From assembly GCF_964340395.1 (NCBI RefSeq), contig NC_135556.1:17918142-17982141 (forward strand): a stretch of 64,000 bases of DNA, in the 5' to 3' direction. Shown here one piece after another: positions 10,308 through 64,000 of the stretch. A program made the translations under genes and the position numbers. The stretch comes from Glandiceps talaboti. Taxonomy: Eukaryota > Hemichordata > Enteropneusta > Spengelidae. The notes beneath the pieces are model-generated. The model was not told where the DNA came from. It did not search any database and saw only the letters and a list, made by a program, of their open reading frames with translations. The number at the start of each line of letters is the position of its first letter. The first letter of the stretch is position 1.

Positions 10308-10376
<69 letters not shown>

Positions 10377-11744
10377 TCTCTCTCAACACACAGCATGTAG
10401 TAAGGAAGATAACACTGGGACTAAGTATGGTTAACTCAAAGATTCACACATAAGTGATGGTCAGACAGCTGATGATTGATAATAATCACATTTCAATTAT
10501 CATCCGTTGTCTGACAATCACACAAACATACACTTCCAGTTATTACTAAGTCTGAAGGCCGACTCTCATCATCTCATTTGAGCTGTTCTTTGTTATGATT
10601 CAAATAATATAAAGTCTGAAAGTGATTGAAGTCACCATCTGCCTTGTGGATCCATCGTCGTAAACCACAGCCTTTTTACGGCACTGTCTGAGTCACCCAG
10701 AAATGTGTGCTTTGGCTTGTGAGAATGTGTGGATCAGTTTCGCTCTTACATATATCATAAACGTTATACATTTGATACATTGCAAAGGCTGTTTATTTAG
10801 AATACTTTACACAAGTTTCGTGTATATTTTGTCTTAATGGGGCTCCAATGTCAGAAGTTAACTCAATATCAAAGTAAACTGAGAAGGTAATTCATCCTGT
10901 AATACAGGGAATTAACACCTTTATTAATTACCGCTAAACAAATGATTAAGGGTGTGTACACAAAGACGAATATTCCATCCAGTAACAGCAATGTTCGTTT
11001 TACAGGTAGGAACTGACATCACAATCTGCATTACAATTTTGGCAAGCTTTGATAAGATGACTAACTGTTATTAACATTTATTTATGTTCACTGTGTATGA
11101 ATAATATAGAGCTGCATTGTAGGTGTGCTTATGGCACTGTCGACGATCTGACCACAAAATGTGACTTACAATGTGGGTGAAGCTGATTACAACAAGGGCA
11201 GTATGTATTCTATACAAAAAGACTACTTGCTCAGCTGTAATGTTGTCACTACGTAACCCAATGGGTAGAAAAATGGCCACTATCTGATTTAGCCCAAAGG
11301 TCACATTTCAGAAAAATTGCTCTGACTAAAAATTGCACAAGTCTTTCTGATAAGTTTTTAGTGAAAGGTGAATTTCACTGGTTGCTTACATGATTGTTAC
11401 AACTATTGTAACCGTATCAAAAACGAGGTTCCCTATCCTTCTTTTTGTCAATTTCTCTTTCTCTTTGTAACATGGAGAATTCTCAAGTTATCATAGTAGT
11501 TGGGACTCATAAAAAATCTCCTTTCTGAGATACATGTACTATTTTTTCAAATCATAGTATTTCACAGCAGCTTTTAAGCAGCTAAATGTAGTGGTGTCAC
11601 CGTTCTGAGGAAGTAATTTAAATTTGCCATGTTTTACTTTTGTTGGCTGAAGTTCTCCTACAACATATCTAAGGTGCTTTTAAAAGCTATCATTATGTAT
11701 GATCTAAAAATGTCTTCCACAAAGATATCCTGCTATAAATGAAA
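8404..11744. other. Intergenic or 3' UTR region without recognised genes
   Basis: Apart from the possible exon at 9185-9321 and the (TCTG)n/(CT)n tract at about 10307-10384, I see no supported gene. The stretch just left of 11745 should hold the 3' UTR of the MAO-like gene. A minus-strand AATAAA lies near 11077-11085, but its use is unproven. Confidence 0.5.
9185..9321 (-). other. Possible orphan exon, NIDO-like strand pattern
   Basis: A 137-bp open block bounded by a plausible acceptor (ACGCAG) and donor (TTACG/GTAAGT). It reads GVLFVDQQYKTIVTRQHG, then QFSECSVLYNNGGIVFAFDN. The YNNGGIVFAF stretch resembles the NNNGxISF strand of NIDO domains, but the similarity is short. Its end phase (2 nt) does not join directly to the first known exon of the SUSD2-like gene at 6576. 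It may be an upstream exon with a missing partner, a separate gene or chance. Confidence 0.25.
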
Positions 11745-18100: not shown

Positions 18101-21100
18101 TACCACTGCGGTCAGGGTTCGAACCCCATTCTAGGTTCAATTAAATTTACCACACTGTAAGTAAGAAGAGTGTCGTTCAGTTTGACTCTACCGAACAACG
18201 CATGCTTTCCCCTGGTACTCTGGTTTCCTCCTACATTAACACTGAACCCATGAGGGATGGCCCTCACTGTACTTCTTGGGAGACAAGTGTTTAAATGCTT
18301 AAAGAACTATCCAGTATAAATAAAGATTATCATTATTATTATTACTTCTGAGTAAGTAAATCACTTTTCACAAGTATAGGAAAAGGGAACAGTTTAGTAT
18401 ATAGTAATTATTCAATCTCAACCTACTGGTTATACTTGCACAATTTTGGGGGATGCTCAAAGTTGGTAGAAGTATGTCATCATACTGATCTATTTCCCAT
18501 TTGATACCTATCACTGTCGTCACATCATCACAGTCAAATTTACAATTTGCTTTTCATTAATAGTATTTTATAAAGAACATTAATTAATATATGATTTTTT
18601 TATGACTTAAAATCAAATACTAATATTATACTCATTATTTTTTTAATAGTCGACTTACTGAGTCCAACAGATTTCATCCAACCATTGCTTAACTGTTACT
18701 TTATCCAATCCTTTAGCATCTGATGAGTCCCATGGTGTATTGGAAGAAATCTAATTTTACATAAAATGTGATAAACATGTCATTTCTGATGAATCCCATG
18801 GTATATTGGGAGAAATCTAATTTTACATAAAATGTGATAAACATGACATTTCTGATGAATCCCATGGTGTATTGGGAGAAACCTAATTTTACATAAAATG
18901 TGGTAAACATGACATTTCTGATGAATCCCATGGTATATTAGAAGAAATCTAATTTTACATAAAATGTGATAAACATGTCATTTCTGATGAATCCCATGGT
19001 GTATTGGAAGAAACCTAATTTTACATAAAATGTGGTAAATATGACATTTCTGATGAATCCCATGGTATATTGGAAGAAACCTAATTTTACATAAAATGTG
19101 GTAAATATGACATTTCTGATGAATCCCATGGTATATTGGAAGAAACCTAATTTTACATAAAATGTGATAAACATGTCATTTCTGATGAATCCCATGGTAT
19201 ATTGGAAGAAACCTAATTTTACATAAAATATGATAAACATGGGAACTATGAGAGGGAGCACATTCTATTGATATAATATTTGATATAAAACAGTTTCAAA
19301 AATTTATGTTTTTGAAAAAAATTGATTTGGTAAAATTTCATTTTTTGTTCATTTAGAATTACTTTAACTATGTTGTTTATACACAGAATTAAAATTCTTT
19401 GCTCAGACAGCAAAACAATCATACACAAATACAATCCAGGCAGTGTTTTCTTTGTAGTCTCTAAGATCCCAACCCCACTATACTTATATTTGATCATCAC
19501 ATGCTATATCCTTGACCATAGAGGAAAGACATTGTTGTTCTCTCCTATACCCTACAAGCACTAGACCCATGACAATTTGAGGAGGGGTGCTTTCCCTGTT
19601 ACTATATTGATCGAGGGGCACAGAATCTATCTGTTACATGGTCCATTGACTTTTTTTACATTAGTAAGAAAAAGTCATTGCAGTTCTTACCTTTGATGAC
19701 AACAACTTCAATGTTCTGAAGAAATTAATCAAGTCCATCCTAATAATAGGATTCCAAATTGGAAAGTTATGGGTATATGGTGTAGTTTGACCCTGTAATA
19801 TAGATAATTCGCAAAAATATAAATATATTAATTTGTTTTTACAAATGTTTGCATAGCATTATTTATGTTTACGTTTATATACAGACCTCTCATCTCTGTT
19901 CAATGAAGCTTTCAAGGTAGGAATTCAAAGTTGTTTGATTTAAGTGTTGACTTTTCAAATTAAGTCAAGGTTATGATAAAACCAGATCAAAATGACTACA
20001 TTTAGAGTATCGTGTGAAAAACATTTGTTTGTTCCTTCTCAGAATGATATTGCCTACTGAACATTACAGAAATGTCCACAGACAGTCTGTACATATTTGA
20101 TGTTGTACAGTGCATTACAGCACCAGTAAGCTTATCATATGATACTGCTCTCAAATTTGACGTCTCCAAAGACGTAAAATCTCCAGTCATGTCAAAGATT
20201 ATTACTGACTGTAGCAAACACTCTATAACATATTTTGTCTTTGATGTAAATCATATTGTATATTAAATAACATTGGGTATTAACATTCACCCCCTTGATA
20301 GTCATGTCACTCATATGCAAATTATATGCAAATTCTGAAATAAAATGTATTATTGTCTATGCTTCCATACTATCAGTGTCTGTATTTTTTGTTATGTTAA
20401 ATTTGTAACAGAAAACCTTTTGTAAGATATAACACAACATTGAGTAGTCTAACTGAAACTCTATAGTTACTTTGGTTTGGTAGTAAAACAACATTGTGCT
20501 GTCTAATTGAAACTCTACAGCCACTCTGGTCTGGTAGTACATCTTTGTAAACAACCTACACATTTGCAAATGGACCTTACAAAATTACCTTTGAATAAAG
20601 TGCCAGATTTTTAGTAACAGGTGGAGGGTTATAAATCTGTACTCCTAATTTTTCACACAGCTCCATACTTCTGAAATCGAATGGACTCAAATACTGTCCT
20701 CCTAAATCTACATAAGGGCATGAAGAAGTCTGAAATGAGAGATTGACAAAAAATAATCACACAATTAATAACATTATGTATGTTCATCATAGAAGCACTA
20801 AGACTCATTATACACAATTTAAGTTCTCTTCTTCCACTTTTGACTGAGAAACAAGGGCGGACATATGTTTTGAACGGATGACTCATCCTATTTCAGTGTC
20901 TAACTGATCTGACAGAATGATCCTAGTTTGCTGGAGGTGTAAAAAAGGTTAGCTTCAATATATGTCATGGTAAACTTAGGTGTAGTTAATGTCATATATT
21001 ATTTTTGTTTCTATTACAGACATACCAGTGCTCAATTAATGTTGGTATATTGACCTTGAATAGTGGTGTTTTTTAAACTTGATATATGGACTTTGACTGG

Positions 21101-22439: not shown

Positions 22440-23264
22440 CTCTTGACTAATTGTATACACAGCACCAGTGCTTTTTTTCAAAAATGAGCTGTATAAACAG
22501 TATATGTACTACATATGTCTGTAAAATAAAAAAAAATGTTATTATTATGTATAGGGGTACAAAACAGATCGTTTTTGTAGGAAGACAACTAACATGGTTC
22601 AAACCCCAACCCCCACCCCCATCCCCAACTAAAAGACTCCAGTTTTTTATCCTACATTGAACTATTGATACGAATTACCTCTTCAGTGACCTATACCTAA
22701 TAATTCATTGTCTGCTCAGTTCCTCCTACCTGTTCTCAACAAACTTGATGTTACGGTTATATACTCCTGAAATTACATACCGACGGCGACTGAAACATAT
22801 ATTTGCGAACACGTACTGCACGGTCTATCAACTCTTTCAAAACTATTTCTTCGACAAGTAAACAACTAGAACTTGAGCGGCTGCACTCACTGGTGCAGAC
22901 TGTCCACTGGTGCTGCACAGCTACGTGACAACGCCCTCAGTGTCAGAGCCCAGTGTGGTCTAGACTATGACCCCAGAGTGACCCCGTGTATGACCTCGGA
23001 CTTTCACATACATTACCCTTCTTTACGTGGTTCTAGCTAGCGCTCGGAGTGTGACGACGTGGTCCCGTGGCGAGAATTGTATTCATATCCAAATCTTGCA
23101 AGTGTACCTATCGTATAACAATATCGAATATACTGTCGTGTTTGTGAAGGTGTGGCGGATATACTGTCCATCTTGTTGCTGTATTTGTTAGCAACACATG
23201 TTTGATTCAGCTAAAAGTATGGTCGCGGTACGCATCAAAGTTCTACCTATCGTCTGCGTTGTTG
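22440..23264 (-). promoter_or_regulatory. Probable 5' flank/promoter region of the MAO-like gene
   Basis: This stretch upstream of the start codon is richer in CpG (about 22760-23290) than its AT-rich surroundings, as expected for a promoter. I see no clear TATA box placement and cannot set a transcription start. Confidence 0.35.
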
Positions 23265-23539
23265 ACTATGTTGACGCAGGCAGACACAGACAGCAGACAT
23301 TGGAAGCAGGCAGATATGACCTTTGACCTTCATCATCAAACCCTCTAGCTTACTGTTAAATTACTGTATAACAAGAAACAAGGACTTTACCAACGTTTAT
23401 CAGTTTCACATACTTTCAAGAGCGGTAATTTATAGATGTAACATAATATAGGACATAACTGAAAACCCAAAGTAAGTTTTTAACAAAATATTCCTATGCA
23501 TTGTCATATTTACATACAACTATTTCTCCCCATGCTAAA

Positions 23540-26500
23540 AAGAGTGTGCACATTATTCACCTACCACATGCTTCATAACACAACACTATGTAAGCTGTAT
23601 AGTAAATTTGGTTGTACCTCAATTTTGTCTTTATACCCAGCAAAGAGTCCACTATAATAAAGGTAATGTTACTAATTCATGGATTTCACTAGTTCTCCTT
23701 GCAAACCATTGAGTGTTCACACTATTCACCTAGTAGACAATAATATATACAGTACACTATGATATGATGTACTCCACTTTAGAAAAAGTACATAATATGT
23801 GGTGCATTTTGGGAAATTTCATTATTTCATACACAAATAAAATGTTTTTGTTTCATACAAACCATTCAGTGTGCACACTATTCACCTATTTGGCTAGTAC
23901 AAATCGGCTATAAAAAAAGGGTATTTCATACACAAATCAAATTCTTCTTTTCTTGCAAACCATTGAGTGTGCACACTAATCATGTACAAGACCCAGTAAA
24001 GTACTATATCAGCTATCATATGATATATGTGACTTAATATTAAATGTGTGTTTTATACCCAGCAGACACACCTTTATTTAGTATATTATAGCAACATTTA
24101 CAAATTTCAATGAAACTTCCCATGAGTTTCCCTTGCAAACAATTTCGTGTGCACACTATTCATATAGTAAGCTTAATAAAGATATATATAAGTTATAACA
24201 TGATATATTTCACTTTTCATAAATTTCGTCTTTCATACACATATATTGATGTGGTGCATTATGGGAAAATTCATTATTTCATACACAAATGAAATTCAAT
24301 TTTCTAGCAAACCGTTGAGTGTGCACACTATTCACGTATTAGGTCTAGTACAATACTATATCAGGTATCATATGATATATGTGACTTTAAATAAATTTCG
24401 TCTTTTATATCCAGCAGACACGCCTTCATTCATGAAATTATAGCAATAATTACTAATTAGTTGAAACTTCATGTGCGTTTTGCTTGCAAACAATTGAGTG
24501 TGCACACTATTTGTATAGTAGACTTAATAAAGCTATATATAAGCTATAACATGATATATTTCACTTTTGATAAATTTCGTCTTTCATACCCAGCAGACAC
24601 AGAAAGATGTGGTGCATTCTGGGAAATTTCACTATTTCATACACAAATCAAACCCACTTTTCTAGCAAACCATTGAGTGTGCACACTATTCACATATTAG
24701 GTCTAGTACAATATTATATCAGCTATCATATGATATATGTGACTTTAAATAAATTTCGTCTTTTATACCCAGCAGACACGCCTTCATTCAGGAAATTATA
24801 GTAATATTTACTAATTTGGCGAAACTTCATGTGCGTTTTGCTTGCAAACAATTGAGTGTGCACACTATTCATATAGTAGACTTAATAAAGCTATATATAA
24901 GCTATAACATGATATATTTCACTTTTGATAAATTTCGTCTTTCATACCCAACAGACACAGAAAGATGTGGTGCATTCTGGGAAATTTCACTATTTCATAC
25001 ACAAATCAAACACACTTTTCTAGCAAACCATTGAGTGTGCACACTATTCACGTATTAGGTCTAGTACAATACTATATCAACTATCATATGATATATGTGA
25101 CTTTAAATAAATTTCGTCTTTTATACCCAGCAGACACACCTTCATTCAGGAAATTATAGTAATATTTACTAATTTGGTGAAACTTCATGTGCGTTTTGCT
25201 TGCAAACAATTGAGTGTGCACACTATTCGTATAGTAGACTTAATAAAGCTATATATAAGCTATAACATGATATATTTCACTTTTGATAAATTTCGTCTTT
25301 CATACCCAACAGACACAGAAAGATGTGGTGCATTCTGGGAAATTTCACTATTTCATACACAAATCAAACACACTTTTCTAGCAAACCATTGAGTGTGCAC
25401 ACTATTCACGTATTAGGCCTAGTACAATACTATATCAACTATCATATGATATATGTGACTTTAAATAAATTTCGTCTTTTATACCCAGCAGACACACCTT
25501 CATTCAGGAAATTATAGTAATATTTACTAATTTGGTGAAACTTCATGTGCGTTTTGCTTGCAAACAATTGAGTGTGCACACTATTCGTATAGTAGACTTA
25601 ATAAAGCTATATATAAGCTATAACATGATATATTTCACTTTTGATAAATTTCGTCTTTCATACCCAGCAGACACAGACATATGTGATGCATTATGGGAAA
25701 TTTCACTATTTCATACACAAATCAAACCCACTTTTCTAGCAAACCATTGAGTGTGCACACTATTCACGTATTAGGCCTAGTACAATACTATATCAACTAT
25801 CATATGATATATGTGACTTTAAATAAATTTCGTCTTTTATACCCAGCAGACACGCCTTCATTCAGGAAATTATAGTAATATTTACTAATTTGGTGAAACT
25901 TCATGTGCGTTTTGCTTGCAAACAATTGAGTGTGCACACTATTCATATAGTAGACTTAATAAAGCTATATATAAGCTATAACATGATATATTTCACTTTT
26001 GATAAATTTCGTCTTTCATACCCAGCAGACACAGACAGATGTGGTGCATTCTGGGAAATGTCACTATTTCATACACAAATCAAACGCACTTTTCTAGCAA
26101 ACCACTGAGTGTGCACACTATTCACGTATTAGGCCTAGTACAATACTATATCAGCTATCATATGATATATGTGACTTTAAATAAATTTCGTCTTTTATAC
26201 CCAGCAGACACACCTTCATTCAGGAAATTATAGTAATATTTACTAATTTGGTGAAACTTCATGTGCGTTTTGCTTGCAAACAATTGAGTGTGCACACTAT
26301 TCGTATAGTAGACTTAATAAAGCTATATATAAGCTATAACATGATATATTTCACTTTTGATAAATTTCGTCTTTCATACCCAACAGACACAGAAAGATGT
26401 GGTGCATTCTGGGAAATTTCACTATTTCATACACAAATCAAACACACTTTTCTAGCAAACCACTGAGTGTGCACACTATTCACGTATTAGGCCTAGTACA

Positions 26501-29500
26501 ATACTATATCAGCTATCATATGATATATGTGACTTTAAATAAATTTGTCTTTTATACCCAGCAGACACGCCTTTATTTAGGAAATTATAGTAATATTTAC
26601 TAATTTGTTGAAAGTTCATGTGCGTTTTCTTGCAAACAATTGAGTGTGCACACTATTCGTATCGTAGACTTAATAAAGCTATATATAAGCTATAACATGA
26701 TATATTTAACTTTTGATAAATTTCGTCTTTCATACCCAGCAGCTAGACACAGAAAGATGTGGTGCATTCTGGGAAATGTCACTATTTCATACACAAATCA
26801 AACCCACTTTTCTAGCAAACCATTGAGTGTGCACACTATTCACGTATTAGGCCTAGTACAATACTATATCAACTATCATATGATATATGTGACTTTAAAT
26901 AAATTTCGTCTTTTATACCCAGCAGACACACCTTCATTCAGGAAATTATAGTAATATTTACTAATTTGGTGAAACTTCATGTGCGTTTTGCTTGCAAACA
27001 ATTGAGTGTGCACACTATTCGTATAGTAGACTTAATAAAGCTATATATAAGCTATAACATGATATATTTCACTTTTGATAAATTTCGTCTTTCATACCCA
27101 GCAGACACAGACATATGTGATGCATTATGGGAAATTTCACTATTTCATACACAAATCAAACCCACTTTTCTAGCAAACCATTGAGTGTGCCCACTATTCA
27201 CGTATTAGGCCTAGTACAATACTATATCAGCTATCATATGATATATGTGACTTTAAATAAATTTTGTCTTTTATACCCAGCAGACACGCCTTTATTTAGG
27301 AAATTATAGTAATATTTTAATACTAATTTGTTGAAAGTTCATGTGCGTTTTCTTGCAAACAATTGAGTGTGCACACTATTCGTATAGTAGGCTTAATAAA
27401 GCTAAATATAAGCTATAACATGATATATTTCACTTTTGATAAATTTTGTCTTTCATACCCAGCAGACACAGAAAGATGTGGTGCATTCTGGGAAATTTCA
27501 CTATTTCATACACAAATCAAACCCACTTTTCTAGCAAACCATTGAGTGTGCACACTATTCACGTATTAGGCCTAGTACAATATTATATCAGCTATCATAT
27601 GATATATGTGACTTTAAATAAATTTCGTCTTTTATACCCAGCAGACACGCCTTTATTTAGAAAATTATAGCAATATTTACTAATTTGTTGAAAGTTCATG
27701 TGCGTTTTGCTTGCAAACAATTGAGTGTGCACACTATTCGTATGGTAGGTTTAATAAAGCTATATAGTAGCTATAACATGATATATTTCACTTTTCATGA
27801 ATTTCGTCTTTCATACCCAGCAGACACAGATGTATTTGGTGCATTCTGGGAAATTTCACTATTTCATACACAAATCAAACCCACTTTTCTAGCAAACCAT
27901 TGAGTGTGCACACTATTCACGTATTAGGCCTAGTACAATATTATATCAGCTATCATATGATATATGTGACTTTAAATAAATTTCGTCTTTTATACCCAGC
28001 AGACACGCCTTCATTCAGGAAATTATAGTAATATTTACTAATTTGTTGAAACTTCATGTGCATTTTGCTTGCAAACAATTGAGTGTGCACACTATTCGTA
28101 TAGTAGACTTAATAAAGCTATATATAAGCTATAACATGATATATTTCACTTTTGATAAATTTCGTCTTTCATACCCAGCAGCTAGACACAGAAAGATGTG
28201 GTGCATTCTGGGAAATGTCACTATTTCATACACAAATCAAACGCACTTTTCTAGCAAACCACTGAGTGTGCACACTATTCACGTATTAGGCCTAGTACAA
28301 TACTATATCAGCTATCATATGATATATGTGACTTTAAATAAATTTGTCTTTTATACCCAGCAGACACGCCTTTATTTAGGAAATTATAGTAATATTTACT
28401 AATTTGTTGAAAGTTCATGTGCGTTTTCTTGCAAACAATTGAGTGTGCACACTATTCGTATCGTAGACTTAATAAAGCTAAATATAAGCTATAACATGAT
28501 ATATTTAACTTTTGATAAATTTCGTCTTTCATACCCAGCAGACACATAAAGATGTGGTGCATTCTGGGAAATTTCACTATTTCATACACAAATCAAACCC
28601 ACTTTTCTAGCAAACCATTGAGTGTGCACACTATTCACGTATTAGGCCTAGTACAATATTATATCAGCTATCATATGATATATGTGACTTTAAATAAATT
28701 TTCTCTTTTATACCCAGCAGACACGCCTTTATTTAGAAAATTATAGCAATATTTACTAATTTGTTGAAAGTTCATGTGCGTTTTGCTTGCAAACAATTGA
28801 GTGTGCACACTATTCGTATGGTAGGTTTAATAAAGCTATATAGTAGCTATAACATGATATATTTCACTTTTCATAAATTTCGTCTTTCATACCCAGCAGA
28901 CACAGATGTATTTGGTGCATTCTGGGAAATTTCACTATTTCATACACAAATCAAACCCACTTTTCTAGCAAACCATTGAGTGTGCACACTATTCACGTAT
29001 TAGGCCTAGTACAATATTATATCAGCTATCATATGATATGTGTGACTTTAAATAAATTTTGTCTTTTATACCCAGCAGACACGCCTTTATTTAGAAAATT
29101 ATAGCAATATTTACTAATTTGTTGAAAGTTCATGTGCGTTTTCTTGCAAACAATTGAGTGTGCACACTATTCGTATAGTAGGCTTAATAAAGCTAAATAT
29201 AAGCTATAACATGATATATTTCACTTTTGATAAATTTCGTCTTTCATACCCAGCAGACACAGAAAGATGTGGTGCATTCTGGGAAATTTCACTATTTCAT
29301 ACACAAATCAAACCCACTTTTCTAGCAAACCATTGAGTGTGCACACTATTCACCTATAAGGCATAGTACAATATTATATCAGCTATTATATGATATATGT
29401 GACTTTAAATAAATTTTGTCTTTTATACCCAGCAGACACACTTTTATTTAGGAAATTTTAGGAATATTTACAAATTTTGATGAAACTACACGTGTGTTTT

Positions 29501-30720
29501 CTTGCAAACAATTGAGTGTGCACACTATTCACCTATTAGGCCTACTACAATATCATATCAGCTATTATATGATATATGTGACTTTATATAAATTTCGTCG
29601 TTGATACCCAGCAGACACAGAAACATGTGGTGCATTCTGGGAAATTTCATTATTTCATATACAAATCAAATTCACTTTTCTAGTAAATCATTGAGTGTGC
29701 ACACTATTCACCTATTAGGCCTAGTACACTACTATATGAGCTATCAAATGATATATGTGACTTTATATAAATTTCGTCTTTCATACCCAGCAGACACACT
29801 TTTATTTAGGAAATTATAGGAATATTACAAATTTTGATGAAACTACACGAGTGTTTTCTTGCAAACAATTGAGTGTGCACACTATTCACCTATTAGGCCT
29901 AGTACAATATCATATCAGCTATTATATAATATATGTGACTTTATATAAATTTCGTCTTTCATACCCAGCAGACACACTTTTATTTATACAGTTATAGGAA
30001 TATTTACAAATTTTTATGAAACTGCACATGCGTTTTCATGCAAACAATTGAGTGTGCACATTATTCATATAGTAGGCTTATATAATACAGTTATATATAA
30101 ACTATCACATGATATATGTCACTTTTAATAAATTTCGTCTTTCATACCCAGCAGACACAGACATATGTGATGCATTATGGGAAATTTCACTATTTCATAC
30201 ACAAATCAAACCCACTTTTCTAGCAAACCACTGAGTGTGCACACTATTCACGTATTAGGCCTAGTACAATACTATATCAGCTATCATATGATATATGTGA
30301 CTTTAAATAAATTTTGTCTTTTATACCCAGCAGACACGCCTTTATTTAGAAAATTATAGCAATATTTACTAATTTGTTGAAAGTTCATGTGCGTTTTGCT
30401 TGCAAACAATTGAGTGTGCAAAATATTCACCTAGTAGGCCTAGTACAATATTATATCAGCTATAATATGAATTGTTTGATAAATTTCGCCTTGTATGCCC
30501 AGCAGATAAGTAATTATATATTAACTTTTTATTTATTCATGGAAACTTCACATGCTTTTACTTGCAAACAATTGAGTGTCCACAATATTAGGCTTTAATA
30601 CAGATGTATGTCAGTTAAAATTTGATGTATTACAGTTTCCATAAATTTTGTCTTTTCTAACCAGCAGATAGAAATATGTGGTGCTGGGAAGTGTCACTTT
30701 TTCAAATCAAATGCTTTTTT
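23540..30720 (+). repeat. Left satellite arm: 358-bp dimer of two related 179-bp monomers
   Basis: About 20 dimers. Monomer A and monomer B alternate. Both contain ATTGAGTGTGCACACTATTC (palindrome GTGTGCACAC), an AT-rich centre, AAATTTCGTCTTT and ATACCCAGCAGACAC. B alone carries GATGTGGTGCATTCTGGGAA. Spacing between equivalent points is 358 bp (for example 25174, 25532, 25890, 26248). From about 26.6 kb onward some blocks recur at about 1.08 kb (27685 and 28761), a higher-order unit. Monomers at both ends of the arm are more divergent, as expected of old array edges. Confidence 0.95.
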
Positions 30721-30732
30721 TGCTTCCAAACC

Positions 30733-30957
30733 ATTGTGTATGGACATAAAAAAAAACATTGAAGATAAGCAACACTTTATCTTAAACTGTAAAATGTTCA
30801 CGGACGAAAGAAAATCAATATTAGCACACTTTAAAATATGGCCCCAAGGTTTGACAGACACAGAAAAATTCCTCAATATGATGAACAGTAAAAATGAGAA
30901 TATAATTAAAGAAGTGGCTAAATACACATACACATGCTTCAAACTTAGAGAGCGGTA
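30733..30957 (+). pseudogene. LINE (non-LTR retrotransposon) C-terminal relic at the palindrome centre
   Basis: Open frame reading IEDKQHFILNCKMFTDERKS, then GLTDTEKFLNMMNS and EVAKYTYTCFKLRER. The pattern IED-x-x-HF-x-x-x-C-x-x-Y/F-x-x-x-R followed by a helix rich in K/Y and CFKLR is typical of the tail after the reverse transcriptase in many animal non-LTR elements. Only about 75 codons remain. It is the only non-satellite sequence between the arms. Confidence 0.6.
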
Positions 30958-30959
30958 CA

Positions 30960-33900
30960 CTAGCTGTCCTATAATTGTATTAATAAAAGTGTGTCTGCTG
31001 GGTATGAAAGACGAAACTTATATAAAGTCACATATATCATTTGATAGCCCATATAGTAGTGTACTAGGCCTAATACGTGAATAGTGTGCACACTCAATGG
31101 TTTGCTAGAAAAGTGAATTTAATTTGTATATGAAAGAATGAAATTTCCCATAATGCATCACATCTTTCAGTGTCTGCTGGGTATCAACGACAAATTTTAT
31201 ATAAAGTCACATATATCATATAATAGCTGATATGATATTGTACTAGGCCTAATAGGTGAATAGTGTGCACACTCAATTGTTTGCAAGAAAACACTCGTGT
31301 AGTTTCATCAAAATTTGTAAATATTCCTATAATTTCCTAAATAAAAGTGTGTCTGCTGGGTATGAAAGACGAAATTTATATAAAGTCACATATATCATTT
31401 GATAGCTCATATTGTAGTGTACTAGGCCTAATACGTGAATAGTGTGCACACTCAATGATTTACTAGAAAAGTGAATTTCATTTGTGTATGAAATATTGAA
31501 ATTTCCCAGAATGCATCACATCTTTCTGTGTCTGCTGGGTATGAAAGACGAAATTTATCAAAAGTGAAATATATCATGTTATAGCTTATATATAACTTTA
31601 TTAAGCCTACTATATGAATAATGTGCACACTCAATTGTTTACAAGAAAACGCATGTGCAGTTTCATCAAAATTTGTAAATATTCCTATAATTGTATAAAT
31701 AAAATTGTGTCTGCTGGGTATGAAAGACGAAATTTATATAAAGTCACATATATCATTTGATAGCCTATATAGTATTGTACTAGGCCTAATATGTGAATAG
31801 TGTGCACACTCAATGGTTTGCTAGAAAAGTGAATTTGATTTGTGTATGAAATAATGAAATTTCCCAGAATGCACCACATGTTTCTGTGTCTGCTGGGTAT
31901 CAACGACGAAATTTATATAAAGTCACATATATCATATAATAGCTCATATAGTAGTGTACTAGGCCTAATATGTGAATAGTGTGCACACTCAATGATTTAC
32001 TAGAAAAGTGAATTTCATTTGTGTATGAAATAGTGAAATTTCCCAGAATGCATCACATCTTTCTGTGTCTGCTGGGTATGAACGATGAAATTTATCAAAA
32101 GTGAAATATATCATGTTATAGCTTATATATAACTTTATTAAGCCTACTATATGAATAATGTGCACACTCAATTGTTCACAAGAAAACGCATGTGCAGTTT
32201 CATCAAAATTTGTAAATATTCCTATAATTGTATAAATAAAAGTGTGTCTGCTGGGTATGAAAGACGAAATTTATATAAAGTCACTTATATCATTTGATAG
32301 CCCATATAGTAGTGTATTAGGCCTAATACGTGAATAGTGTGCACACTCAATGGTTTGCTAGAAAAGGGAATTTTATTTGTGTATGAAAGAATGAAATTTC
32401 CCATAATGCATCACATCTTTCAGTGTCTGCTGGGTATCAACGACAAATTTTATATAAAGTCACATATATCATATAATAGCTGATATGATATTGTACTAGG
32501 CCTAATAGGTGAATAGTGTGCACACTCAATTGTTTGCAAGAAAACACTCGTGTAGTTTCATCAAAATTTGTAAATATTCCTATAATTTCCTAAATAAAAG
32601 TGTGTCTGCTGGGTATGAAAGACGAAATTTATATAAAGTCACATATATCATTTGATAGCTCATATTGTAGTGTACTAGTCCTAATATGTGAATAGTGTGC
32701 ACACTCAATGGTTTGCTAGAAAAGGGAATTTCATTTGTGTATGAAATAGTGAAATTTCCCTTAATGCATCACATCTTTCTGTGTCTGCTGGGTATCAACG
32801 ACGAAATTTATCAAAAGTGAAATATATCATGTTATAGCTTATATATAACTGTATTAATCCTACTATATGAATAATGTGCACACTCAATTGTTTCCAAGAA
32901 AACACACTTGTAGTTTCATCAAAATTTGTAAATATTGCTATAATTTCCTGAATGAAGGTGTGTCTGCTGGGTACAAAAGACGAAATTTATTTAAAGTCAC
33001 ATATATCATATGATAGCTGATATAGTATTGTACTAGGCCTAATACGTGAATAGTGTGCACACTCAATGGTTTGCAAGAAAACGCATGTGCAGTTCATCAA
33101 AATTTGTAAATATTCCTATAATTTCCTAAATAAAAGTGTGTCTGCTGGGTATGAAAGACAAAATTTATATAAAGTCACATATATCATTTAATAGCTCATA
33201 TAGTAGTGTACTAGGCCTAATACGTGAATAGTGTGCACACTGAATGATTTACTAGAAAAGTGAATTTCATTTGTGTAAGAAATATTGAAATTTCCCAGAA
33301 TGCATCACATCTTTCTGTGTCTGCTGGGTATGAAAGACAAAATTTATCAAAAGTGAAATATATCATGTTATAGCTTATATATAACTTTATTAAGCCTACT
33401 ATATGAATAATGTGCACACTCAATTGTTTACAAGAAAACGCATGTGCAGTTTCATCAAAATTTGTAAATATTCCTATAATTTCCTAAATAAAAGTGTGTC
33501 TGCTGGGTATGAAAGACAAAATTTATATAAAGTCACATATATCATATAATAGCTCATATAGTAGTGTACTAGGCCTAATACGTGAATAGTGTGCACACTC
33601 AATGATTTACTAGAAAAGTGAATTTCATTTGTGTATGAAATAGTGAAATTTCCCATAATGCATCACATCTTTCTGTGTCTGCTGGGTATCAACTACGAAA
33701 TTTATCAAAAGTGAAATATATCATGTTATAGCTTATATATAACTGTATTAATCCTACTATATGAATAATGTGCACACTCAATTGTTTCCAAGAAAACACA
33801 TGTGTAGTTTCATCAAAATTTGTAAATATTGCTATAATTGTATAAAAATAAAAGTGTGTCTGCTGGGTATGAAAGACGAAATTTATATAAAGTCACATAT

Positions 33901-36900
33901 ATTATATAATAGCTGATATGATATTGTACTAGGCCTAATAGGTGAATAGTGTGCACACTCAATTGTTTGCAAGAAAACACTCGTGTAGTTTCATCAAAAT
34001 TTGTAAATATTCCTATAATTTCCTAAATAAAAGTGTGTCTGCTGGGTATGAAAGACAAAATTTATATAAAGTCACGTATATCATATAATAGCTCATATAG
34101 TAGTGTACTAGGCCTAATACGTGAATAGTGTGCACACTCAATGATTTACTAGAAAAGTGAATTTCATTTGTGTATGAAATAGTGAAATTTCCCAGAATGC
34201 ATCACATCTTTCTGTGTCTGCTGGGTATGAACGATGAAATTTATCAAAAGTGAAATATATCATGTTATAGCTTATATATAACTTTATTAAGCCTACTATA
34301 TGAATAATGTGCACACTCAATTGTTCACAAGAAAACGCATGTGCAGTTTCATCAAAATTTGTAAATATTCTTATAATTGTATAAATAAAAGTGTGTCTGC
34401 TGGGTATGAAAGACGAAATTTATATAAAGTCACTTATATCATTTGATAGCCCATATAGTAGTGTATTAGGCCTAATACGTGAATAGTGTGCACACTCAAT
34501 GGTTTGCTAGAAAAGGGAATTTTATTTGTGTATGAAAGAATGAAATTTCCCATAATGCACCACATCTTTCTGTGTCTGCTGGATATCAACGACGAAATTT
34601 ATCAAAAGTGAAATATATCATGTTATAGCTTATATATAACTGTATTAAGGCTACTATATGAATAATGTGCACACTCAATTGTTTGCAAGAAAACGCATGT
34701 GCAATTTCATCAAAATTTGTAAATATTCCTATAATTGTATAAAATAAAAGTGTGTCTGCTGGGTATGAAAGACGAAATTTATATAAAGTCACATATATCA
34801 TATAATAGCTGATATGATATTGTAGTAGGCCTAATAGGTGAATAGTGTGCACACTCAATTGTTTGCAAGAAAACACACGTGTAGTTTCATAAAAATTTGT
34901 AAATATTCCTATAATTTCCTAAATAAAAGTGTGTCTGCTGGGTATGAAACACGAAATTTATATAAAGTCACACATATCATATGATAGTTGATATAGTAGT
35001 GTACTAGGCCTAATGCGTGAATAGTGTGCACACTCAATGGTTTGCAAGAAAACACTCGTGTAGTTTCATCAAAATTTGTAAATATTCCTATAATTTCCTA
35101 AATAAAAGTGTGTCTGCTGGGTATGAAAGACGAAATTTATATAAAGTCACATATATCATTTGATAGCCCATATAGTAGTGTACTAGGCCTAATACGTGAA
35201 TAGTGTGCACACTCAATTGTTTGCTTTAAAAGTGAATTTGATTTGTGTATGAAAGAATGAAATTTCCCAGAATGCACCACATGTTTCTGTGTCTGCTGGG
35301 TATCAACGACGAAATTTATATAAAGTCACATATATCATATAATAGCTGATATGATATTGTACTAGGCCTAATAGGTGAATAGTGTGCACACTCAATTGTT
35401 TGCAAGAAAACACACGTGTAGTTTCATCAAAATTTGTAAATATTCCTAAAATTTCCTAAATAAAAGTGTTTCTGCTGGGTATGAAAGACAAAATTTATAT
35501 AAAGTCACATATATCATTTGATAGCTCATATTGTAGTGTACTAGGCCTAATATGTGAATAGTGTGCACACTCAATGGTTTGCTAGAAAAGGGAATTTCAT
35601 TTGTGTATGAAATAGTGAAATTTCCCATAATGCATCACATCTTTCTGTGTCTGCTGGGTATCAACGACGAAATTTATCAAAAGTGAAATATATCATGTTA
35701 TAGCTTATATATAACTGTATTAATCCTACTATATGAATAATGTGCACACTCAATTGTTTCCAAGAAAACACGTGTAGTTTCATCAAAATTTGTAAATATT
35801 GCTATAATTGTATAAAAATAAAAGTGTGTCTGCTGGGTATGAAAGACGAAATTTATATAAAGTCACATATATTATATAATAGCTGATATGATATTGTACT
35901 AGGCCTAATAGGTGAATAGTGTGCACACTCAATTGTTTGCAAGAAAACACTCGTGTAGTTTCATCAAAATTTGTAAATATTCCTATAATTTCCTAAATAA
36001 AAGTGTGTCTGCTGGGTATGAAAGACGAAATTTATATAAAGTCACACATATCATTTGATAGCTCATATAGTAGTGTACTAGGCCTAATGCGTGAATAGTG
36101 TGCACACTCAATGGTTTGCAAGAAAACACTCGTGTAGTTTCACCAAAATTTGTAAATATTCCTATAATTTCCTAAATAAAAGTGTGTCTGCTGGGTATGA
36201 AAGACGAAATTTATATAAAGTCACATATATCATTTGATAGCCCATATAGTAGTGTACTAGGCCTAATACGTGAATAGTGTGCACACTCAATTGTTTGCTT
36301 TAAAAGTGAATTTGATTTGTGTATGAGAGAATGAAATTTCCCAGAATGCACCACATGTTTCTGTGTCTGCTGGGTATCAACGACGAAATTTATATAAAGT
36401 CACATATATCATATAATAGCTGATATGATATTGTACTAGGCCTAATAGGTGAATAGTGTGCACACTCAATTGTTTGCAAGAAAACACACGTGTAGTTTCA
36501 TCAAAATTTGTAAATATTCCTAAAATTTCCTAAATAAAAGTGTGTCTGCTGGGTATGAAAGACAAAATTTATATAAAGTCACATATATCATTTGATAGCT
36601 CATATTGTAGTGTACTAGGCCTAATATGTGAATAGTGTGCACACTCAATGGTTTGCTAGAAAAGGGAATTTCATTTGTGTATGAAATAGTGAAATTTCCC
36701 ATAATGCATCACATCTTTCTGTGTCTGCTGGGTATCAACGACGAAATTTATCAAAAGTGAAATATATCATGTTATAGCTTATATATAACTGTATTAATCC
36801 TACTATATGAATAATGTGCACACTCAATTGCTTCCAAGAAAACACATGTGTAGTTTCATCAAAATTTGTAAATATTCCTATAATTGTATAAAAATAAAAG

Positions 36901-39900
36901 TGTGTCTGCTGGGTATGAAAGACGAAATTTATATAAAGTCACATATATTATATAATAGCTGATATGATATTGTACTAGGCCTAATAGGTGAATAGTGTGC
37001 ACACTCAATTGTTTGCAAGAAAACACTCGTGTAGTTTCATCAAAATTTGTAAATATTCCTATAATTTCCTAAATAAAAGTGTGTCTGCTGGGTATGAAAG
37101 ACGAAATTTATATAAAGTCACATATATCATTTGATAGCCCATATAGAAGTGTATTAGTCCTAATACGTGAATAGTGTGCACACTCAATTGTTTGCTTTAA
37201 AAGTGAATTTGATTTGTGTATGAAAGAATGAAATTTCCCAGAATGCACCACATGTTTCTGTGTCTGCTGGGTATCAACGACGAAATTTATATAAAGTCAC
37301 ATATATCATATAATAGCTGATATGATATTGTACTAGGCCTAATAGGTGAATAGTGGGCACACTCAATTGTTTGCAAGAAAACGCACGTGTAGTTTCATCA
37401 AAATTTGTAAATATTCCTATAATTTCCTAAATAAAAGTGTGTCTGCTGGGTATGAAACACGAAATTTATATAAAGTCACACATATCATATGATAGTTGAT
37501 ATAGTAGTGTACTAGGCCTAATACGTGAATAGTGTGCACACTCAATGGTTTGCTAGAAAAGGGAATTTCATTTGTGTATGAAATAGTGAAATTTCCCATA
37601 ATGCATCACATCTGTCTGTGTCTGCTGGGTATGAACGACGAAATTTATCAAAAATGAAATATATCATGTTATAGCTTATATATAACTATATTAAGCCTAC
37701 TATATGAATAATGTGCACACTCAATTGTTTACAAGAAAACGCATGTGCAGTTCATCAAAATTTATAAATATTCCTATAATTGTATTAATAAAAGTGTGTC
37801 TGCTGGGTATGAAAGACGAAACTTATATAAAGTCACATATATCATTTGATAGCTCATATAGTAGTGTACTAGGCCTAATACGTGAATAGTGTGCACACTC
37901 AATGGTCTGCTAGAAAAGTGAATTTAATTTGTGTATGAAAGAATGAAATTTCCCATAATGCATCACATCTTTCAGTGTCTGCTGGGTATCAACGACAAAT
38001 TTTATATAAAGTCACATGTATCATATAATAGCTGATATGATATTGTACTAGGCCTAATAGGTGAATAGTGTGCACACTCAATTGTTTGCAAGAAAACACT
38101 CGTGTAGTTTCATCAAAATTTGTAAATATTCCTATAATTTCCTAAATAAAAGTGTGTCTGCTGGGTATGAAAGACGAAATTTATATAAAGTCACACATAT
38201 CATTTAATAGCTGATATAGTAGTGTATTAGGCCTAATACGTGAATAGTGTGCACACTCAATTGTTTGCTTTAAAAGTGAATTTGATTTGTGTATGAAAGA
38301 ATGAAATTTCCCAGAATGCACCACATGTTTCTGTGTCTGCTGGGTATCAACGACGAAATTTATATAAAGTCACATATATCATATAATAGCTGATATGATA
38401 TTGTACTAGGCCTAATAGGTGAATAGTGGGCACACTCAATTGTTTGCAAGAAAACGCACGTGTAGTTTCATCAAAATTTGTAAATATTCCTATAATTTCC
38501 TAAATAAAAGTGTGTCTGCTGGGTATGAAACACGAAATTTATATAAAGTCACACATATCATATGATAGTTGATATAGTAGTGTACTAGGCCTAATACGTG
38601 AATAGTGTGCACACTCAATGGTTTGCTAGAAAAGGGAATTTCATTTGTGTATGAAATAGTGAAATTTCCCATAATGCATCACATCTGTCTGTGTCTGCTG
38701 GGTATGAACGACGAAATTTATCAAAAATGAAATATATCATGTCATAGCTTATATATAACTTTATTAAGCCTACTATATGAATAATGTGCACATTCAATTG
38801 TTTACAAGAAAACGCATGTGCAGTTCATCAAAATTTATAAATATTCCTATAATTGTATTAATAAAAGTGTGTCTGCTGGGTATGAAAGACGAAACTTATA
38901 TAAAGTCACATATATCATTTGATAGCTCATATAGTAGTGTACTAGGCCTAATACGTGAATAGTGTGCACACTCAATGGTCTGCTAGAAAAGTGAATTTAA
39001 TTTGTGTATGAAAGAATGAAATTTCCCATAATGCATCACATCTTTCAGTGTCTGCTGGGTATCAACGACAAATTTTATATAAAGTCACATGTATCATATA
39101 ATAGCTGATATGATATTGTACTAGGCCTAATAGGTGAATAGTGTGCACACTCAATTGTTTGCAAGAAAACACTCGTGTAGTTTCATCAAAATTTGTAAAT
39201 ATTCCTATAATTTCCTAAATAAAAGTGTGTCTGCTGGGTATGAAAGACGAAATTTATATAAAGTCACACATATCATTTAATAGCTGATATAGTAGTGTAC
39301 TAGGCCTAATACGTGAATAGTGTGCACACTCAATTGTTTACAAGAAAACGCATGTGCAGTTTCATCAAAATTTGTAAATATTCCTATAATTTCCTAAATA
39401 AAAGTGTGTCTGCTGGGTATGAAAGACGAAATTTATATAAAGTCACATATATCATTTGATAGCCCATATAGTAGTGTACTAGGCCTAATATGTGAATAGT
39501 GTGCACACTCAATGGTTTGCTAGAAAAGTGAATTTAATTTGTGTATGAAAGAATGAAATTTCCCATAATGCACCACATCTTTCTGTGTCTGCTGGGTATG
39601 AACGATGAAATTTATCAAAAGTGAAATATATCATGTTATAGCTTATATATAACTGTATTAAGGCTACTATATGAATAATGTGCACACTCAATTGTTTCCA
39701 AGAAAACGCACGTGTAGTTTCATCAAAATTTGTAAATATTGCTATAATTTCCTGAATGAAGGTGTGTCTGCTGGGTATGAAAGACAAAATTTATTTAAAG
39801 TCACGTGTATCATATAATAGCTGATATAATATTGTATTGTCCCTAATACGTGTATAGTGTGCACACTCAATGGTTTGCTAGAAAAGTGTATTTGATTTGT

Positions 39901-40560
39901 GAATGAAATAATGAGATGTCCCATAATGCACCACATCTTTCTGTGTCTGTTGGGTATGAAAGACGAAATTTATCAAAAGTGAAATACATCATAATATAGC
40001 TTATATATAGCTGTATTAAGTCTACTACATCAATAGTGTGCACACTCAATTGTTTGCAAGTGAAAAACATCATATGATAGCTGATATTGTACTGTACTTG
40101 GCCTAATAGGGGTATAGTGTGCACACTCAACGGTTTCATTATTGTTTGAAATAGTGAAATTTCCCATAATGCACCATATATTTATGTGTCTGCTCGGTAG
40201 AAAAGTCGAAGTTTATTCAAAGTCACATCTATAATACGATAGCTGATATATTATTGTACTCGGCCTAATTCTTGTATTGTTTGCACACTGAATGGTGTGG
40301 AAGAAAATAAACCTTTGAATGTGTGTATGAAATACCTATTTTTTTTATAGCATACATAGTACTCTACTAGGCCTAATTGGTGATTTAATAATGTGCACAC
40401 TGAATGGTTTGAAATGAAAAAAACATTTGATTTGTGTATGAAATAATGGAATATCCCATAATACACCACATGTTTCTGTGTAGAAATTTTTTTATCATTT
40501 ATACATTGCTGTGTATACTATGTGAATAGTGTGAACACTGGTTTGCAAGGAAAAGTTCTG
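30960..40560 (-). repeat. Right satellite arm: same 358-bp dimer in inverted orientation
   Basis: About 26 dimers, reverse-complement of the left arm (CACTCAATTGTTTGCAAGAA and GTGTCTGCTGGGTATGAAAG recur throughout). Higher-order repetition at about 1073 bp (three dimers) is clear. Blocks at 37417 and 38490, at 37704 and 38777, and at 35446 and 36520 are nearly identical. The outer units (about 39800-40560) are decayed. Confidence 0.95.
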
Positions 40561-41040
40561 AAATCCATGACTTAGTAACATTCCCATTATTATAGTTAAC
40601 TCTTTGAAGGGTATAAAAGACAAAATTTAGGTACAACCAACTTTAATAATACAGATTTCACAGAGCTCTATTTTGAAGCATGGTGAAAACACAGTACTCT
40701 TGCATGGGGAGAAACTAATTGTTTGATTAATACTTTAACATGTAAATATCACATTGCATAAGAATAATTTTTTTTTTAAAGTTACTTCGGGTTTTCATTT
40801 ATGTCTTATATTATGTTACTTCTATGATTCATCACCTCTGAAAGTCTGTGAAACTGATAAAGAAAGGTAAAGTCCTTGTTTCTTGATATACAGTAATTTG
40901 ACAGTAAGCTAGAGGGTTCGATGTTCAAGGTCAAAGGTCATTTCTGCCTGCTTCCATTGTTTGCTGCCTGTGTCTGCCTGCTTCAACTTAGTGCGTTGTT
41001 GGTGTTGCTTGTTTTTTCCTTGTACAATGGCTGTTAAGAC

Positions 41041-42587
<1,547 letters not shown>

Positions 42588-54954: not shown

Positions 54955-55415
54955 ACAATAAACCCAGGACCTGGTAGGATAGAGGTTGCAACTGACAGTA
55001 AACCCAGCTGTATAATTGAGGACCTGGTAGGATAGGGGTTGCAACTGACAGTAAACCCAGCTGTATAATTGAGGACTTGGTAGGATAGGGGTTGCAACTG
55101 ACAGTAAACCCAGCTGTATAATTGACGACCTGGTAGGATAGGGGTTGCAACTGACAGTAAATCCTGCTGTATAATTGACGACCTGGTAGGATAGGGGTTG
55201 CAACTGACAGTAAACCCAGCTGTATAATTGACGACCTGGTAGGATAGGGGTTGCAACTGACAGTAAATCCTGCTGTATAATTGATGACCTGGTAGGATAG
55301 GGGTTGCAACTGACAGTAAACCCAGCTGTATAATTGACGACCTGGTAGGATAGGGGTTGCAACTGACAGTAAATCCTGCTGTATAATTGAGGACCTGGTA
55401 GGATAGGGGTTGCAA
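54955..55415 (+). repeat. 53-bp minisatellite, 8 copies
   Basis: Unit starts GACCTGGTAGGATAGGGGTT, then GCAACTGACAGTAAACCCAG, then CTGTATAATTGA. Variants ACCCAG and ATCCTG alternate. All three minus-strand frames are open across the array, producing an artefactual 215-codon frame. Confidence 0.92.
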
Positions 55416-55829: not shown

Positions 55830-56870
55830 TACTGTATTTCAAATGAGGCAGGTCATGCTTGACATTGCAGCACTGTACACTGTATTTCAAATGACACAGG
55901 TCATACTAGACATTACAGCACTGGTGCAGTATTTCAAATGACACAGGTCATGCTAGACATTTACAGTATTGCAGGTTGTATTTCATATGACACAGGTCAT
56001 CTTAGACATTACAGTATTGCAGGCTGTATTTTATATGACAGGTCATCTTAGACATTACAGTATTGCAGGCTGTATTTCATATGACACAGGTCACCTTAGA
56101 CATTACAATACTGCAGGCTGTATTTTATATGACAGGTCATCTTAGACATTACAGTATTGCAGGTTGTATTTCATATGACACAGGTCATCTTAGACATTAC
56201 AGTATTGCAGGCTGTATTTCATATGACACAGGTCATGCTAGACATTTACAGCATTGCAGGTTGTATTTCATATGACACAGGTCATCTTAGACATTACAGT
56301 ATTGCAGACTGTATTTCATATGACACAGGTCATCTTAGACATTACAGTATTGCAGGCTGTATTTCATATGACACAGGTCACCTTAGACATTACAGTACTG
56401 CAGGCTGTATTTCATATGACACAGGTCATCTTAGACATTACAGTACTGCAGGCTGTATTTCATATGACACAGGTCATCTTAGACATTACAGTATTGCAGG
56501 TTGTATTTTATATGACAGGTCATCTTAGACATTACAGTATTGCAGGCTGTATTTTATATGACAGGTCATCTTAGACATTACAGTATTGCAGGCTGTATTT
56601 TATATGACAGGTCATCTTAGACATTACAGTATTGCAGGCTGTATTTTATATGACAGGTCATCTTAGACATTACAATACTGCAGGCTGTATTTCATATGAC
56701 ACAGGTCACCTTAGACATTACAGTACTGCAGGCTGTATTTCATATGACACAGGTCATCTTAGACATTTACAGTATTGCAGGCTGTATTTCATATGACACA
56801 GGTCACCTTAGACATTACAGTATTGCAGGCTGTATTTCATATGACACAGGTCACCTTAGACCCCAGTAAA
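55830..56870 (+). repeat. About 48-bp minisatellite, about 21 copies
   Basis: Unit CATTACAGTATTGCAGGCTG then TATTTCATATGACACAGG then TCATCTTAGA. A shorter 44-45 bp variant lacks the ACAC step (TATATGACAGG). Runs of long and short variants alternate. Confidence 0.92.

Positions 56871-59519: not shown

Positions 59520-64000
<4,481 letters not shown>

Follow-up and report, generated by a model that had tools for sequence, protein, structure and literature searches.

The window, that is, the whole 64,000-bp stretch of Glandiceps talaboti DNA that was analysed (C9:17918142-17982141 in its own assembly, which comprises 590.4 Mb in 47 contigs), contains near its middle a large inverted structure in which two satellite arrays face each other across a short LINE fragment. 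The copy in the window is designated C9 below, and its parts are as follows.

23256..23264, no strand: left 9-bp target-site duplication, GCGTTGTTG
23265..40992, plus strand: whole element, 17,728 bp, with termini ACTATGTTGACGCAGGC at the left and ACTAAGTTGAAGCAGGC (inverted) at the right
23265..23904, plus strand: left outer inverted end, 640 bp
23922..30470, plus strand: left satellite array of A and B monomers of 179 bp (358-bp dimer), from TRF
30758..30961, plus strand: central LINE fragment, 204 bp
30967..40060, minus strand: right satellite array, an inverted copy of the left-array satellite, from TRF with the inverted unit
40353..40992, minus strand: right outer inverted end, 640 bp, at 77% identity with the left one
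40993..41001, no strand: right 9-bp target-site duplication, an exact copy of GCGTTGTTG

The initial annotation had described this region as a palindrome in which the same 179/358-bp satellite runs plus on the left and minus on the right, and both the TRF periods and the strands bear this out. Its start at 23265 was exact, and its end at 40985 fell 7 bp short; likewise, the outer flanks are indeed inverted copies of each other, with a length of about 640 bp at 77% identity in place of the roughly 450 bp first proposed. When the inverted ends are extended inward (23265-24110 against 40992-40146), identity is 75.7% over 883 columns, and the best inverted match between the two arrays is 82.7% over 6,624 columns. 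The 179-bp monomers, 38 in the left arm and 52 in the right, mostly alternate between types A and B, giving the 358-bp dimer, and satellite-like boxes can be seen by eye in the inner part of the left outer end. The window copy has no coding core, and Rfam and tRNA scans of the window returned no matches.

A LINE relic had also been proposed for the centre, and the 204-bp fragment found there proved to be one, as 36 of its 40 scored genome matches are located elsewhere than in the four element copies having it in common (C9, C12a, C13a and C11a), at 83-97% identity. Most of the genome matches of the LINE piece cover window positions 30758-30961, and the proteins related to it have frames of up to 1198 codons (150 of 631 candidates scored); the Pfam search left the fragment unrecognised. 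The 227-bp centre as a whole is 100% identical in C9, C12a and C13a.

Other repeats are present in the window, including tandem arrays at 55832-56861, 54968-55415 and 18719-19241 with units of 48, 53 and 66 bp, respectively, and long TC/GA simple-sequence tracts at 10309-10384, 41268-41429 and 62078-62243, the second of which lies some 275 bp beyond the element's right border. Elsewhere in the assembly, the mitochondrial genome is represented by contig C40 (G000), whose 51,222 bp carry COX1 every 15,435 bp and so amount to about three head-to-tail copies, which is probably an assembly effect.

The flank pair is not unique to this locus, so that one of the refuting conditions named in the initial annotation fails. 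When the first 216 bp were searched against the assembly, as the initial annotation had suggested, 45 matches were obtained, many of them as convergent pairs, and a 21-base terminus pattern allowing up to two mismatches gave 43 matches, as opposed to 0 for the reversed control. Because the copies are paired and the 43 terminus matches compare with none in the control, chance is excluded as the source of these matches. Twenty stretches, covering 28 of the 45 end matches and including the 25 best, were fetched. The large paired copies among them are C9 (17,728 bp), C12a (8,575 bp), C13a (10,388 bp), C11a (26,011 bp), C8 (5,482 bp), C2 (20,965 bp), C13b (9,330 bp), C6 (7,337 bp) and C4 (7,059 bp), and a miniature copy of 404 bp (C23:12438865-12439268) has the same ends and a 9-bp duplication without any satellite. 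Exact 9-bp duplications, different in sequence at each locus, flank all ten fetched pairs of the C9 end family, a count that sets aside 17 weaker end matches, among them convergent pairs on C20 (88 bp) and C16 (about 225 bp). One of the ten, C13b, is inserted within the end of another copy, and when C13b and one duplication are removed, the joined flanks match the C9 left end at 114 of 115 bases. In a search with the satellite (29 of 31 candidates scored), all of the matches listed, which were part of 265 and did not include the window itself, fall at loci that also bear element ends.

These copies are of two kinds. C9, C12a, C13a and C11a have distinguishable L- and R-type ends that are about 77% alike, together with the LINE piece, while C8, C2, C13b, C6 and C4 have R-type ends on both sides and no detectable spacer between their arrays. 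The ends of C9, C12a and C13a, including the counterparts of the 640-bp left outer end, are 99.8-100% identical, whereas their array lengths differ; those of C11a are 97-98% identical to C9-type ends. Such near-identical copies point to recent movement. The largest number of monomers in one arm, 56, is found in C2, whose right array also contains an insertion judged LINE-like by eye, with frames of 295 and 975 codons (C2:32709476-32713334, minus strand; L009/L010). In the copies without a spacer, the centres pair at only 50-70% in 300-bp ungapped arms and are therefore not perfect hairpins, although inverted matches with gaps allowed reach 79-89% inside copies of this kind. For the window palindrome, hairpin formation and instability would be expected from its layout.

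Two readings that require no transposition may be weighed against these observations. A chromosome break within a satellite array, healed by copying back, would produce one large palindrome and would be expected to leave just such opposed arrays of a single satellite around a small spacer; the five copies in which the arrays meet without a detectable spacer fit it as well. This fold-back replication product, which the initial annotation had offered as one of two alternatives, would nevertheless carry no target duplications and would not recur with the same termini at unrelated loci, as opposed to the ten loci with shared termini and exact 9-bp duplications, the clean insertion of C13b inside another copy, and the copies with identical ends but differing arrays. 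The breakage reading is not supported and is considered very improbable. A chimaeric join, during assembly, of two satellite-bearing stretches in opposite orientation is rated just as improbable: assembling long arrays of near-identical units is difficult, and the array lengths are the part of the structure in real doubt, but ten paired copies have perfect duplications outside both ends, and one of them sits in an older end of the C9 family. The other alternative of the initial annotation, a very large non-autonomous foldback element, is the one supported by the dispersed pairs, by the duplications at ten out of ten and by the one clean nested insertion. In structural terms the class is that of foldback elements, as the copies combine long inverted ends of tandem repeats with dispersal and target duplications. 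The structure in the window is thus a real mobile element and belongs to a family of giant foldback transposons whose arms carry satellite arrays.

How the arms change can be seen by comparing near-identical copies. Almost all of C12a can be aligned to C9, which is 9.15 kb longer, and the roughly 8,570 aligned bp contain 14 mismatches. Three differences are large, at 1438, 1077 and 6626 bp, which correspond to 8.0, 6.0 and 37.0 monomers of 179 bp, while the remaining differences are steps of 1-12 bp, and monomer order is kept next to the ends and next to the centre. Since whole-monomer blocks stand against only 14 mismatches, the arrays of C9 and C12a have changed by whole units much faster than by bases, with the lengths taken as assembled and perhaps partly misassembled. 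Between C13a and C9 the steps are more numerous and smaller, with 93 mismatches in 9,845 aligned bp in 18 segments.

A possible source of the missing coding capacity was found through C11a, in which the LINE piece adjoins a core with a 1085-codon open frame containing a ubiquitin hydrolase domain (UCH, E 3.6e-25) and a Ulp1 protease domain (C48, E 6.5e-12). With the C11a protein as query, two full homologues were recovered, on C5 and C19, each occupying the latter half of an open frame of 2197 codons; the C11a frame corresponds to that half at 55% identity. The C5 and C19 elements measure 31,741 and 32,484 bp, are flanked by the 9-bp duplications GTCGACTCT and GTCGGGTAA, and consist of opposed arrays of a 368-369 bp satellite around a core of about 19 kb. 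Across both end families, 9-bp duplications were thus present in 12 of the 12 elements checked, the C5/C19 family contributing its two large elements (2/2). A query with the outer 135 bp of that family gave 30 matches, among which are convergent pairs spanning 4.1 kb on C7 and 14.9 kb at C5:22220-37110; these pairs are left out of the duplication count. On C20, about a dozen single ends of the C5/C19 family, 92-94% identical and mostly on the minus strand, are clustered at 2.5-8.3 Mb, with no opposite end nearby among the matches listed.

The 2197-codon frame is open from stop to stop in both C5 and C19, and codon 166 is its first ATG. Between the C5 and C19 frames, 19 of 6,591 nt are different, 13 codons being non-synonymous and 6 synonymous, which is too few for a judgement on selection. 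In a domain search of the C5 frame done in two pieces, the first part matched the PHD finger PF00628 (E 1.2e-5, 25.7 bits against a Pfam cut-off of 24), and further matches were to ubiquitin hydrolase (E 2.4e-22) and the C48 protease (E 2e-11). Upstream of the frame and on the same strand, the C5 core (L023:2151-5039, minus strand) contains weak GDSL-esterase-like pieces below the Pfam cut-off and a proline-rich repeat frame, with a longer open frame at that place in C19.

Between the PHD finger and the hydrolase lie the motifs DATG, a second D before SW, and H.C..HF. DDE transposases of the Mutator group have the arrangement D..D..E with C..H between the second D and the E, and the region looks like a DDE transposase with this Mutator-group feature. 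It is common to loci on C22 and C15 at about 30% identity; the second D and the C..H are conserved in three loci, the first D in the two that cover it, and the E was assigned by eye. The DDE-like region matches no Pfam or NCBIfam transposase model and no solved structure, and no relative was found among viral contigs. In the C5 frame, the MULE domain PF10551 gave no match at E up to 1, and none was found for an integrase domain or for the KDZ transposase domain, by which KDZ/Zisupton elements are represented in Pfam. PF10551 has 31 matches in the genome, 0 of which fall within the elements. A genome search with the transposase region gave no match in any C9-type element, and this half of the protein is absent from all fetched copies with C9-type ends, C11a included.

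The two families are also linked by their satellites. Alignment of the C9-family satellite with that of the C5/C19 family gave a score of 58, as compared to a mean of 21.6 (SD 2.7, maximum 33) for 300 random first-order Markov versions, from which the two satellites are judged to be homologous. The best cross-family parts are TTGAGTGTGCAC and ATACCCAGCAGACACG; when 12-base windows are ranked by conservation, these parts overlap windows in the top ten for both monomer types of the C9 family, as determined from 393 of 485 monomers (165-195 bp) with monomer matches of at least 120 columns. Within the window element there are 82 occurrences of GCAGACAC, against two elsewhere in the window, and GCAGACACAG is also present in the terminus. 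The left terminus shares 11 bases with the monomers; for the right terminus, 32 of 2,000 random first-order versions equalled or exceeded its 10-base match, so that the sharing of a box between terminus and monomer is suggestive only. The C9 and C5/C19 termini share, by eye, the motif ACT[AC]AG[TC]TGA.

Taken together, the structure in the window is best read, with a probability of about 0.92, as a copy of a non-autonomous giant cut-and-paste transposon of foldback type, of a lineage nearest to Rehavkus and with a coding partner likely to be of the C5/C19 type. In the proposed mechanism, each arm would comprise an outer inverted end of several hundred bp and a long 179-bp satellite array, with the arms facing each other, and a transposase supplied from elsewhere would recognise the C9 ends and insert the element with the 9-bp duplication that its footprints display. 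Elements like C5 and C19, with their open 2197-codon frame, are the likely type of autonomous partner. The LINE fragment probably entered first and the core was then lost, an order suggested by C11a, which with ends of 97-98% identity has the LINE piece beside a remnant of the core gene. Whole-monomer change in the arrays, the outcome of which is seen in C9 and C12a, may proceed by unequal exchange, slippage or repair after excision, and the two conserved satellite boxes, one of which is also in the terminus, may serve as additional transposase-binding sites. Mobilisation of C9-type elements by the C5/C19 protein is itself unproven, because identity is 55% where the proteins are comparable, the outer ends are different, and no C9-type element has the transposase half.

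That last point leaves room for a foldback element moved by a Mutator-like, Phantom or P-type (Galileo-like) transposase encoded elsewhere, with C5 and C19 as a separate case. The 9-bp duplications would suit Mutator-like elements (PMC3169594), Mutator-domain genes are present in the genome (the 31 matches above), and the short motif seen by eye is all that the C9 and C5/C19 outer ends have in common. As opposed to this, C11a combines C9-type ends with the second half of the C5/C19 protein, and the satellites of both families are homologous, which makes another transposase improbable.

A bolder version of the reading with a C5/C19-type partner is that the elements constitute a separate giant lineage whose satellite arms have a function of their own: every monomer would carry a terminus-like box, dozens of binding sites at each end would load the transposase, and the fused hydrolase and Ulp1 domains would shield it from host ubiquitin/SUMO control. 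We regard this version as speculative and, as a whole, rather unlikely. If it were true, selection on the transposon, and not drift, would maintain the satellite, and satellite arrays standing alone elsewhere could be fossil transposon arms. Non-coding, half-coding and open-frame forms of one lineage are present in a single assembly, and it can therefore be tested which protein moves these elements, whether monomers are binding sites and how movement relates to array length.

Long inverted repeats built of tandem units have been known from the Drosophila FB and sea urchin TU elements named in the initial annotation, in which both the units and the elements are far shorter than here. Among described groups, the lineage is nearest to Rehavkus, itself allied to Mutator-like elements, a placement made by the description of Rehavkus and not by protein sequence. 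PMC6446971 places Rehavkus near the Mutator-like elements and lists for it a duplication of 9 bp, a PHD finger, a minisatellite ahead of the 3' end and, in a table, a terminal inverted repeat of 26-400 bp; it comes from arthropods and annelids and is said there to be described in Repbase only. Three of these features recur here, namely the 9-bp duplication, the PHD finger (in the C5 frame) and tandem repeats in or beside the inverted termini, and the outer end before the repeats is about 135-300 bp in C5/C19 and about 420-640 bp in the C9 family. The inverted termini of Rehavkus-1_TC, from Tribolium, contain the 164-bp satellite TCsat23, for the most part as runs of five and eight monomers (PMC10218199); that element is 9.5 kb long, as opposed to up to 26-32 kb and up to 56 monomers per arm here. 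A further difference from Rehavkus as described is that a single frame here joins the transposase-like region to a ubiquitin hydrolase and a Ulp1 protease.

Another example of such an arrangement is Tetris of Drosophila virilis, a foldback element with tandem repeats of about 220 bp in its inverted ends and duplications of 8-10 bp, whose near-identical copies differ in repeat number and whose arrays reach 66 copies in contigs, with fibre-FISH arrays flanked by two end domains (PMC4079207). The likeness extends to the repeats in the inverted ends, the long arrays and the varying repeat number; for Tetris, however, the same source gives just three copies with a complete structure, each of them defective, and found no coding partner, whereas coding relatives of the same layout are found here in the same genome. 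In Tm1 of Meloidogyne and in Phantom, tandem repeats form part of composite, foldback-like ends, the duplications are mostly of 9 bp, and coding as well as non-coding forms exist (PMC3169594), all of which is shared with the present family, but their repeats are of 13-15 bp, one copy measures 1,080 bp, and the Phantom transposase is of FLYWCH type (PMC3169594), as opposed to a 179-bp satellite and a PHD finger. In Galileo of Drosophila, tandem repeats in long ends expand and contract independently on each side and have been proposed to hold extra transposase-binding sites; it resembles the present elements in these ends and differs in belonging to the P-element superfamily and, in the copies described, in its small number of repeats, two or three of about 210 bp within ends about 1.26 kb long (PMC3573991).

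The protein domains can be compared in the same way. Ginger has a Gypsy-integrase-like transposase, and since the terms Ulp1 and PHD both occur in the Ginger paper (PMC2836005), these two domains alone do not decide the class; the C5 frame is set apart from Ginger by having no integrase match, from Mutator-like elements proper by the absence of PF10551, and from KDZ/Zisupton by having no KDZ transposase match. In the portions available of the open-licence PMC literature, including PMC6431247 and PMC13359780, there was no mention of a foldback element as large as these or of one with a ubiquitin hydrolase. The layout of these elements is already known in smaller form, from which their size, their open coding frames and the protease fusion set them apart.
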